A stretch of DNA of 64,000 nucleotides from Bacteroidales bacterium (GTDB lineage: Bacteria > Bacteroidota > Bacteroidia > Bacteroidales > UBA932). Every line of letters begins with the position of its first letter. Position 1 is the first letter of the stretch. The notes below the pieces were generated by a model. The model saw only the letters and a list, made by a program, of their open reading frames with translations. It was not told the DNA's origin and ran no database searches. Both the position numbers and the translations under genes were made by a program. Location: the NCBI GenBank assembly GCA_017513445.1, contig JAFXFS010000003.1:1-64000 (forward strand), written 5' to 3'. This document shows positions 4,443 to 25,909 of the stretch, piece after piece.

Positions 4443-5330
4443 GTGAAAGAGGTAAGCTTTAAGGTACTGATTGATAATCAGACATTTAGTGATTTAGAAA
4501 GTGAACACGGGCTCTCTATTCTAATTGAAACAGAGGAGATATGCATTCTATGTGATATGGGTGCATCCTCTGCCTTTTTACGCAATGCAGAAATGATGGG
4601 CGTAGATCTAAACACTATCGATTTTGCCTTTATTTCTCACGGCCATTCAGACCATACTGGTGGATTAAGGAGCTTTTTAGAGAGATATCCAAATAAGAAA
4701 ATCTTTGCTTCCAAGAATATTTTCAATGAGTATTATTTTTCAGGCCGTAGAGGGTATTGGAGGGCAATGAGTACGGATCATTCTCTCCTAAATGACTATG
4801 GTGATGTTTTCCAATTGATTGATAATCAACAGAATGTGGGTGGTAGTAATGGCATTTGGATCTCTCCTAAGGTGGCAATTGTCTCAAATATTCACGATAA
4901 ATGGAGTACCCCCTTTGGAAACAAATATCTTACAAAAATGATTTCTTCTGAGGGAAATTCTCCTTTACAGGCAGATCCGGAATATCTGCTCTCAGATGAT
5001 TTTGGTCACGAACTTTCACTTGTTATTCTGACAGAGAGCGGAGCAGTAATTTTCTCCTCCTGTTCGCATTGCGGTGCAGTGAATATTATAGAGTCGTGCT
5101 GTGATTTTACAGGTGAGAGTAGAGTGCGGGCATTTGTGGGAGGATTGCATCTGGTTGATTCTCCTGAAGTTGTATTAGAAGTTGATAATTTTGCTTCTGA
5201 ATTGAGCAAAAGATTTCCAGAGACACATATCTTTACCGGACACTGCACATCAGATTCTGCCAAGGAGTTGCTTTTGAAAAAGTTGAATTGTGTAGAGTTA
5301 TTCTATGCCGGTTATTCAATTGCACTATAA
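4443..5330 (+). CDS. Metallo-beta-lactamase-fold hydrolase
   Basis: 295 residues from a GTG start, giving the sensible N-terminus MKEVSFKVLIDN. The metal-binding signature HGHSDH (66-71) is followed by a C-terminal GHCTSD (His near 267) resembling the GHCTG end of MBL proteins annotated as dihydropterin/RFA-P-synthase-like enzymes of the MJ0301 type. A cytoplasmic binuclear metallohydrolase is expected. The actual reaction is unknown, because the RFA-P synthase name is often over-extended. It lies 20 nt behind the SDR gene. Downstream is repeat cluster 1, with no separate terminator except the hairpins of that repeat. Confidence 0.82.
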   Translation: MKEVSFKVLIDNQTFSDLESEHGLSILIETEEICILCDMGASSAFLRNAEMMGVDLNTIDFAFISHGHSDHTGGLRSFLERYPNKKIFASKNIFNEYYFSGRRGYWRAMSTDHSLLNDYGDVFQLIDNQQNVGGSNGIWISPKVAIVSNIHDKWSTPFGNKYLTKMISSEGNSPLQADPEYLLSDDFGHELSLVILTESGAVIFSSCSHCGAVNIIESCCDFTGESRVRAFVGGLHLVDSPEVVLEVDNFASELSKRFPETHIFTGHCTSDSAKELLLKKLNCVELFYAGYSIAL

Positions 5331-5338
5331 AAGATAAC

Positions 5339-5500
5339 AGATTGCCGGGCTACGCCTAGCAATGACGTTCCTTTTCGTCATTCCCGAGCTTGTCTCGGGA
5401 ATCTGATATAGATTGCCGCACTTCGTGCAGCAATGACGCACCATATTTCGTCATTCCCGAGCATATTATATCGTCATTCCCGAGCTTGTCTCGGGAATCT
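5339..5500. repeat. Paired-hairpin intergenic repeat, cluster 1
   Basis: Two unit types alternate. Type A (5339-5367 and 5410-5438) starts AGATTGCC and ends AGCAATGACG, with a stem-loop such as GGGC-TAC-GCCT or GCAC-TTC-GTGC inside. Type B (5376-5404 and 5472-5500) starts CGTCATTCCCGAG, has loop CTTGT, and closes with CTCGGGAATCT. A truncated B (5449-5470) precedes the last B. A and B are oppositely oriented: AATGACG of A is complementary to CGTCATT of B, and AGATT of A to AATCT of B. The arrangement resembles a BIME-like pair. The two A copies differ by compensatory stem changes. Confidence 0.85.
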
Positions 5501-5525
5501 ATCCTCCCCTTCACGTACACCCAAT

Positions 5526-5563
5526 AATAGAAAAAGGGCAATCCTTTGAAAGGAGTGCCCTTT
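5526..5563 (-). terminator. Terminator of the peptide transporter gene
   Basis: AAAGGGCA (5533-5540) pairs with TGCCCTTT (5556-5563), with an inner CCTTT/AAAGG stem. On the minus strand the hairpin is followed by TTTTTCTATTATT, 25 nt after the stop at 5589. Confidence 0.8.
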
Positions 5564-5588
5564 GGTATATATCATTAAATGTGAAGTC

Positions 5589-7148
5589 CTATTTAGTAAC
5601 TCTCTCTAACCATTTAACCATTGCTAACATACCTCCCATTGAGATTAGACATACAACTAGGAAGACTGTCCAGCATTGCCAGATTGGCCAAGCATTGTAC
5701 ATAAGTGGACCAAGAGGTAGAAGTAGGTTACCTATAGCGGTAGCACCAAGCCATAGACCTTGGCAAAGACCTAACATACTCTTAGGAGCAACTTTAGATA
5801 CGAATGACAAACCAAGTGGAGAGATAAACAACTCTGCAACTGTCAAGAAGAAGTAAACTGCAATTAGAATCCACCAGTGAGCTTTAGCTGCACCTTGAGC
5901 ATCTACAGGAAGTACCTTGAAGTCGTTTGCTGAAGGATAACCTTGGATAGATGAGAAGATTGCAAGTAGCAAGTAAGCAAGACCAGCGATAAACATACCG
6001 ATAGCGATCTTTCTTGGAGTTGAAATTGCTTTACCTCTGCGTGCAAATGTACCAAACAACCACATAATTACAGGAGTAAGAACAATTACGAAGAATGGGT
6101 TGATTGCTTGCCAGATTTCAGGAGCAACAGCTGATGAATCTACGAAGTCACGTGCAAATAGAGACAAAGATGTACCATTTTGGTGGAATGAGAACCAGAA
6201 GAAGATTACGATACCAAGTACTGCAAATAGAGCATACATACGTTGTTTGATCTCTTTAGCAGCAGCAGCTTTCTCTTCAGGTGTGTAATCGATGCTCTTA
6301 ACTGCCTCTTTCTTAGCAGGGTTAGGGAAAATTCTTTGTGATGAGAAGAAGATTACCAATGAGATAATCATAGCAGCAACAGATGCGATGAATGAGTAGT
6401 GGATACCTTCATTGAAAATTTGAAGATAACGTTGACACTCATTAGCAAGGTCTGAAACATTTCCACCAACTTGAGCCATCAATACATTTAGGTTGTTCAT
6501 TGCCTCAGCTGCCATTGCACCACTATTAGCTAAGAACTCGTGGCAAAGAGCAGGAAGTTGTGCATTGTAAACCAAACCGTTAGTGTTTAGCCACCATTCA
6601 CGAAGAAGTGGAGCAACGAAAGGAGCGATTAGACCACCAACATTAATAAATACGTAGAAAATTTGGAAACCAGAGTCTCTCTTATCTTTTGCAGCTTTAA
6701 GTGCCTCAGGTCCATTCTTAGCAGCTTCTGTTTCAAAGTCATCATACATTTGACCAACAATTGCCTGCAAGTTACCTTTGAAAAGACCATTACCAAAAGC
6801 GATAAAGAATAGGGCAGCACAAGTCAATGGAAGAAGCCAACCAATATTCTCTGGAGTAGAAAGAATTGGAATAGAAAGAAGTAAGTAACCACAAGCCATA
6901 ATGATAAGACCAGTTTTAATAGTGGCCTTATAGTTTTGAGTGCGGTCAGCAATTAGACCACCTACCAAACTTAGAATGTAGATACCTGCATAAAAAACAG
7001 AATAGATTGTTGTACTTTGACCTTCCGGTAAACCAAATTTAGAACATAGGAACAATACCAGCACCGCATTCATAATGTAGTAACCAAAGCGTTCGCCCAT
7101 ATTACTCAACGCGGCAGCTAGTAGACCTTTCGGGTGATTTTTAAACAT
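5589..7148 (-). CDS. Proton-dependent oligopeptide transporter (POT/PTR family)
   Basis: 519 residues, many hydrophobic helices. The N-terminus carries GERFGYY (18-24), the form of the ExxERFxYY motif that binds protons in POT transporters. SVFYAGIYILSLVGGLIADR matches the second family signature. A long insertion between helices (about 170-240) is often seen in Bacteroidota members. It imports di- and tripeptides across the inner membrane with the proton gradient, fitting a peptide-using organism that also encodes PepD nearby. Transcribed alone, with its own -7 box at 7204-7211 and a terminator at 5526-5563. Confidence 0.92.
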   Translation of the reverse strand: MFKNHPKGLLAAALSNMGERFGYYIMNAVLVLFLCSKFGLPEGQSTTIYSVFYAGIYILSLVGGLIADRTQNYKATIKTGLIIMACGYLLLSIPILSTPENIGWLLPLTCAALFFIAFGNGLFKGNLQAIVGQMYDDFETEAAKNGPEALKAAKDKRDSGFQIFYVFINVGGLIAPFVAPLLREWWLNTNGLVYNAQLPALCHEFLANSGAMAAEAMNNLNVLMAQVGGNVSDLANECQRYLQIFNEGIHYSFIASVAAMIISLVIFFSSQRIFPNPAKKEAVKSIDYTPEEKAAAAKEIKQRMYALFAVLGIVIFFWFSFHQNGTSLSLFARDFVDSSAVAPEIWQAINPFFVIVLTPVIMWLFGTFARRGKAISTPRKIAIGMFIAGLAYLLLAIFSSIQGYPSANDFKVLPVDAQGAAKAHWWILIAVYFFLTVAELFISPLGLSFVSKVAPKSMLGLCQGLWLGATAIGNLLLPLGPLMYNAWPIWQCWTVFLVVCLISMGGMLAMVKWLERVTK

Positions 7149-25708: not shown

Positions 25709-25909
25709 AGATTGCCGGGCTTCGCCCAGCAATGACGTTTCGATATCGTCATTCCCGAGCATATTATATCGTCATTCCCGAACTTGTTTCGGGAATCTAT
25801 TTCAATTGTATATCCAACAGATTGCCGGGCTTCGCCCAGCAATGACGAAAAAGAAAGTCCAGCAATGACAGTTAGTTTTAAGTCATTCCCGAGCTTGTCT
25901 CGGGAATCT
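25709..25909. repeat. Paired-hairpin intergenic repeat, cluster 2
   Basis: The same A and B units as at 5339-5500. Type A is complete at 25709-25737 and 25819-25847, with a fragment at 25859-25870. Type B is complete at 25770-25798 and 25882-25909. A truncated B with the same tail (GAGCATATTATAT) as in cluster 1 is at 25747-25769. One B copy changes its stem from CGAG/CTCG to CGAA/TTCG, keeping pairing. Both clusters follow the 3' end of a plus-strand gene. Confidence 0.85.

Follow-up and report, generated by a model that had tools for sequence, protein, structure and literature searches.

CGTC-tagged, REP-like hairpins of a Bacteroidales genome form head-to-head pairs that may spread as mobile DNA

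Between a metallo-beta-lactamase-fold gene and a convergent POT transporter gene, the stretch of Bacteroidales DNA analyzed here (64,000 nt, hereafter the window) carries a cluster of short inverted hairpins, which raises the question of what exactly is repeated at this locus and how it could have multiplied. The four hairpins that had been placed here from the sequence by an earlier note were confirmed, at 5339-5367, 5376-5404, 5410-5438, and 5472-5500. The pattern AGATT-N(8-30)-AATGACG matches seven times in the window, compared to 0.32 matches expected, and none of 100 shuffled sequences reached seven. Four of the matches make up the cluster at 5339-5500, and the remaining three are located at 25709-25847. 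The two clusters contain the following features:

5339-5367, minus strand (CGTC strand): type A unit in which a single change disrupts a pair of the CGTC strand (pattern match and folding)
5368-5375, no strand: tail-to-tail spacer of 8 nt, a junction between units (neighbor-pair catalogue)
5376-5404, plus strand: type B unit, the left arm of a complete head-to-head pair (pattern match and folding)
5405-5409, no strand: head-to-head spacer GATAT, 5 nt, of the short spacer class (neighbor-pair catalogue)
5410-5438, minus strand: type A unit, the right arm of the complete head-to-head pair, with a GAA triloop and a T-G wobble in the stem (pattern match and folding)
5376-5438, no strand: the complete head-to-head heterodimer, CGTC outside, 63 bp (neighbor-pair catalogue)
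5449-5462, plus strand: type B half-unit that keeps the CGTC end and is cut at the loop (half-unit scan)
5472-5500, plus strand: type B unit lacking an intact partner in the first cluster (pattern match)
25709-25737, minus strand: type A unit of the second cluster (pattern match)
25747-25760, plus strand: type B half-unit of the second cluster (half-unit scan)
25770-25798, plus strand: type B unit of the second cluster, left arm of a head-to-head pair (pattern match and pair catalogue)
25819-25847, minus strand: type A unit of the second cluster, right arm of the pair with 25770-25798 across a 20-nt spacer (pattern match and pair catalogue)
25881-25909, plus strand: type B unit of the second cluster with the mutated tag AGTC (read from the sequence)

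When both strands are read, the architecture of the unit is CGTC-ATT-stem-loop-stem-AAT-CT. The hairpins had been assigned to two separate types, A and B, joined tail to tail. The hairpins themselves stand, but they are better described as one kind of unit in opposite orientations, and the tail-to-tail arrangement, although present, is better read as a junction between head-to-head units than as the basic unit. The proposed compensatory stem changes were also found, except that the copy at 5339 has its G-U pair on the plus strand only; on the CGTC strand the bases are A-C, and there this copy folds poorly (-4.4 kcal/mol, compared to -8.3 kcal/mol for the neighboring copy). Folded as DNA, the heterodimer at 5376-5438 has z-scores of -4.5 (plus strand) and -5.4 (minus strand). 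An Rfam search of positions 5200-5700 yielded no match up to E = 1. A further hairpin was read by eye near 5535-5566.

The host genome (G000), which comprises 1.62 Mb, contains 211 matches to the unit (107 + 104 on the two strands), whereas the reversed control pattern matches only six times (3 + 3). For a detailed catalogue, 40 stretches around listed copies were combined with the window, altogether 382,291 bases. These 382 kb contain 197 strict units of the form CGTCATT...AATCT, namely 106 of type A (35 distinct), 73 of type B (16 distinct, with one row that is a chance match by eye), and 18 called type C by the script (9 distinct), four of which are B-like copies with a T-G change. Among the relatives, copy numbers range from a few to the 211 of G000; G006 is second among the genomes counted, with 168 places, and G136, which is 77% complete, has 125. 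Viral contigs searched with degenerate A and B 29-mers gave no matches. Near-identical clusters with the same flanks are present on two contigs of G000 (C4:3705-3960 and C8:4787-5040), representing either a real or an assembly duplicate.

The stems covary. Across 19 distinct 29-nt units of type A, 96.8% of the cells are paired, compared to 91.2% in shuffles and to 23-43% when the partners are slid by one to three columns. Eleven cells are altered on both sides, and at pair 12-20 all of GC, CG, AT, and TA occur. Among 15 distinct 29-nt units of the B form (13 from type B, the other two carrying the T-G change), one pair covaries, from GC to AU, and the other measures are weak: extra pair types do not exceed those of the shuffles, and the covariation score is not above that of the -3 slide. 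In G006, marginal base counts match at positions 12/18 (G37 C36 A20 vs. C39 G37 T17) and at positions 8/22 (T73 C20 vs. A73 G20). Thus, two of the checks suggested by the earlier note, a genome-wide count and a tabulation of the stems, gave positive results, and the condition that it had set for refutation, very few copies without further covariation, did not apply. Its view of a BIME/REP-like element holds, given the many copies, the covariation of the stems, the orientations that alternate, and the mostly intergenic location.

Type A has the sequence ATTGC-T-GGGC-(GNA)-GCCC-G-GCAAT on the CGTC strand. What appears as a C-A mismatch is a T-G wobble on this strand in 104 of the 106 copies, and 102 of the 106 have C-G as the closing pair. 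The triloop is GNA in 83 of 87 copies of 27 and 29 nt, all ten 30-nt copies of type A have four-base GNNA loops, and so do 11 of 13 type C copies of 32 nt, as read from the catalogue. With DNA parameters, the CGTC strand is the more stable one in 100 of 106 copies of type A and in 17 of 18 of type C, and RNA parameters give the same preference, whereas in type B the other strand is slightly favored (72 of 73 copies), again with both parameter sets. Hence, the CGTC strand is indicated as the folding strand for types A and C, and the strand argument is confined to them. Because the two parameter sets agree in their strand preferences, energy does not decide between DNA and RNA; the type of loop favors a DNA rather than an RNA hairpin. 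The oligonucleotide d(GCGAAGC) folds into a DNA hairpin of exceptional stability. Such hairpins are described in general terms in the text of PMC10527192. According to the text of PMC5815330, d(GNA) triloops form a stable DNA family in which a C-G closing pair is preferred, d(GCA) loops melting at 68.9 °C with C-G closing vs. 48.9 °C with G-C closing, and this motif is described as portable across DNA and RNA. In G006, marginal counts place G10-A11 opposite G19-A20 on the CGTC strand in nearly all of 93 units of 27 nt, an arrangement that may represent tandem sheared G-A pairs.

The arrangement of the units follows a strict rule. Among 125 pairs of neighbors (units within 200 nt), 56 are head-to-head, with CGTC outside, 45 are tail-to-tail, and 24 are tandem. 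All 101 inverted pairs join an A unit with a B or C unit, whereas 23 of the 24 tandem neighbors belong to a single class (Fisher p = 3e-24). The head-to-head spacers are bimodal: all but two of the 56 measure 4-5 or 20-36 nt, and they often begin with GTT and end with AAC or AAT. Adjacent tail-to-tail units are often 8-10 nt apart, and longer tail-to-tail spacers commonly contain half-units; altogether, 32 of the 72 clusters comprise three or more units. In G006, all 15 close neighbor pairs are head-to-head, and the arms are identical in 12 of the 15, compared to 0.64 expected by chance with 51 distinct sequences among 95 units (95 of the 100 places listed, from a total of 168, after removal of one overlapping and four chance-like matches). 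The close pairs listed for G136 are head-to-head as well and, by eye, mostly join a long and a short unit. Given the pairing rule, the spacers, and the pairs of G006 and G136, the head-to-head pair is the leading candidate for the spreading unit. However, tail-to-tail pairs are frequent (45 vs. 56), and certain spacers are found in more than one of them; movement or recombination may thus involve larger blocks, too. Target duplications were found at none of the 56 pairs in G000, where many of the flanks are other repeats, and at one of 14 pairs in G006 and G136 (1/5 and 0/9), in no case beyond chance.

We consider it somewhat more probable than not, at roughly 55%, that these elements are non-autonomous, REPIN-like mobile DNA made of CGTC-tagged REP hairpins, of which the head-to-head pair is the part that spreads. 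This reading builds on what is directly observed, namely the pairing rule, the covariation, the strand preference of types A and C, the lack of target duplication, and the preference for convergent gaps described below. The spreading unit would comprise a B or C hairpin and an inverted A hairpin, separated by a spacer that mostly measures 4-36 nt but in some cases is made of 76-bp repeats. CGTC would lie at either outer end, and each strand of the pair would open with 5'-CGTC followed by a hairpin. The hairpin may act as single-stranded DNA during replication, and CGTC could serve as a recognition or guide tag, as GTAG does for RAYTs. Copying would be carried out by a further enzyme, possibly a lost one, a trans-acting one, or a HUH-type nuclease of the host, and local replication slippage at the hairpins may produce arrays of half-units. 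The reading is weakened by the lack of Y1_Tnp and IS110 matches in the genome, by the opposite strand preference of type B, and by the portability of the loop motif and the agreement of the RNA energies noted above, and movement is deduced from the sequences.

A script running Tandem Repeats Finder detected 58 arrays that touch catalogue sequences. Forty have a period of 18-35 and consist mostly of half-units, seven fall into the 36-45 bin (which also includes a few arrays shorter than 18), seven have a period of 76, and four a longer one. By rule-based, uncurated counts, half-units with the CGTC end outnumber those with the AATCT end by 50 to 13 for type A and by 44 to 23 for type B, although 19 of these 23 are by eye whole type C units. 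The 76-bp repeat, counted by eye, forms 11 arrays with 27 copies. It has CCACCTGG/CCAGGTGG ends and lies beside or between CGTC hairpins at C18:80546-80938 of G000 (L177 2547-2939) and at ten other places; every array is preceded by a B or C unit, and eight of the 11 run into an A unit. Across 199 genomes of the family, the 76-bp repeat occurs in G000 and on one contig of G200 (C17, L204), which by eye matches the G000 region around the CGTC cluster at C18:80366 and may be mis-binned. A tRNA origin of the repeat was rejected, as no tRNA gene lies at the arrays, and an Rfam search of one array returned nothing credible.

In a rival reading, no dedicated enzyme would be needed, the elements spreading by replication slippage, fold-back copying, and recombination via host enzymes. 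The 40 half-unit arrays and the excess of CGTC-end halves would fit this explanation, and the identical arms in G006 suggest that arms are homogenized. However, slippage accounts for local arrays and not for how the elements reached many sites with exact CGTC...GACG ends, a pattern that points to an enzyme, and we regard purely host-driven spread as distinctly unlikely. The bolder proposal of a class of transposase-free mobile DNA, in which the replication and repair machinery of the host would copy a GNA-looped mini-hairpin in single-stranded form, homogenize its two arms, and duplicate it in tandem, appears quite improbable.

The genomic context, obtained by simple ORF calling, bears on a different explanation. 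Of 72 clusters, 43 lie between convergent genes, nine between genes of the same direction, and six between divergent genes, while nine overlap ORFs, mostly small ones, and five are at the edges of stretches. With these last 14 excluded, 43 of 58 classifiable clusters are in convergent gaps, which make up 41% of the intergenic bases of the same stretches (p = 2e-7), a comparison affected by the facts that clusters lengthen their own gaps and that some share a gap. This preference, together with the strong RNA folding of the hairpins, is consistent with bidirectional 3'-end stabilizers or attenuators, the covariation being selected in the transcript; the earlier note had also raised such a role. 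However, any transcript of a head-to-head pair has one arm on the weak strand, and this strand logic disfavors a simple RNA role. Furthermore, a terminator scan at the site found no terminator with a T-run, copy numbers vary from a few to 211 across relatives, and harmless insertion would leave the same enrichment. We regard an RNA function as unlikely.

The RAYT-type transposase suggested by the earlier note as the mover was not detected: PF01797 has no match in the genome, while five of 14 control genomes were positive. A profile search for IS110 also gave no match in this genome and was positive in controls, and a search for Y2_Tnp gave none in this genome or in any control genome, making it uninformative. 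A relaxase gene of G000 (C15:75581-75970, L248) is the sole HUH-type match among the families tried.

RAYTs could still have mobilized the CGTC pairs in trans, or before their loss from this genome. Indeed, strong Y1 matches (E < 1e-15) occur in 14 of 35 CGTC-rich genomes (excess of at least 15) and in 16 of the remaining 164 (odds ratio 6.2, p = 5e-5), and G006, second in copy number, has a Y1 transposase gene with two internal stops (C26:34407-34700, L123). However, the association is weaker within genera (p = 0.065; 66 genomes from six genera having both states), and neither G000, with its 211 units, nor G136 has a Y1 match. When any Y1 match is considered across the 199 family genomes, it is unrelated to CGTC richness (p = 0.85). 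In addition, a CGTC unit was found within 400 bp of none of 40 RAYT-like loci of relatives by the stem rule, which leaves out the degraded copies at L136. This locus was rejected as a CGTC-flanked RAYT, the GGATT...AATGACG copies on its flanks being degraded, about 255 bp away on either side, and part of duplicated intergenic blocks. The RAYT-like genes of the bacterial family (L123-L142, e.g., L125, L131, and L141) have inverted hairpins of their own with tags such as CATAA, TTAA, or AATA, not GTAG or CGTC. Taken together, mobilization by RAYTs is conceivable, but we judge it unlikely.

The clustered, mosaic, and intergenic layout is also reminiscent of chromosomal binding sites for gyrase, a nucleoid protein, or a recombinase that are kept by selection, as proposed for the BIMEs of E. 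coli and the dRS3 arrays of Neisseria; dRS3 repeats are the integration target of phage Nf1, according to the text of PMC3898611. However, the elements are patchily present among relatives. At 80 related POT-gene loci of other Bacteroidales, the metallo-beta-lactamase-fold neighbor was not found and, by the rule used, none has a CGTC unit. In addition, the genome lacks an IS110 match, and we regard selected binding sites as very improbable.

Non-autonomous mobile DNA thus remains the preferred reading, and its closest relatives are known. The elements can be placed in the CGTC-tagged REP super-family described by Di Nocera et al. (2013), of which they represent a new variant. In the text of that paper, the families CGTC-1 to -4 share with the present units the unpaired CGTC end, the AT pairs at the start of the stem (here part of the search pattern), heterodimers, the lack of a linked transposase, and the frequent location between convergent genes. 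Head-to-head dimers predominate in the super-family; they are the commonest arrangement in G000, though closely followed by tail-to-tail pairs (56 vs. 45), and account for all 15 close pairs of G006. The stems of 8-9 bp and loops of 4-5 nt of the super-family agree with the 9 bp and 5-nt loop of type B, whereas type A has 9-10 bp and a 3-nt loop and type C has 11 bp and a 4-nt loop. By the text description, types A and C are also set apart by the fixed T-G wobble and the GNA/GNNA loops, and the present elements by their half-unit and 76-bp arrays and by common tail-to-tail pairs and clusters, which are rare in the super-family. The tail is CT here, as required by our search pattern, and mostly CCA there, and hence is not treated as defining. 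No transposase is linked to the super-family and none was found here by the Y1 and IS110 searches, so that our RAYT result agrees with the published description, which left open what moves the CGTC REPs (PMC3733652). A literature search, with subscription papers mostly outside its scope, found no description of such elements in Bacteroidales and no named mobilizer, and a search with the literal sequence turned up no paper on repeats, judging by the titles; the term RAYT is absent from the available text of PMC12306157, which cites the 2013 paper. The class is therefore known, and the anatomy of this variant and its abundance in a genome that lacks the usual enzyme seem to be new. A small, CGTC-rich genome in which neither Y1 nor IS110 genes were detected helps to narrow down the mover, and the strand-specific hairpin provides a defined substrate for testing candidate enzymes.

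Other systems share individual features. In the BIMEs of E. coli, as here, two hairpin classes alternate in opposite orientation and one class, y, has two possible partners, z1 and z2, but their tag is GTAG instead of CGTC, and the present genome has no RAYT match; cleavage of E. coli REPs needs an irregular stem and the GTAG tag, according to the text of PMC8266576. The REPINs of Pseudomonas fluorescens are inverted hairpin pairs that probably represent the replicating unit, as stated in the text of PMC3116915, and the pairing rule and spacers seen here would fit such a unit; they differ in that no RAYT was found here, and that the arms are different in G000, albeit mostly alike in G006. MITEs of DDE transposons produce target site duplications, whereas the 56 pairs of G000 have none. 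The neisserial dRS3/NIME mosaics resemble the present clusters in combining CGTC-1 hairpins (dRS3) with other repeats in intergenic arrays, with the difference that the enclosed repeat is here a 76-bp tandem unit.
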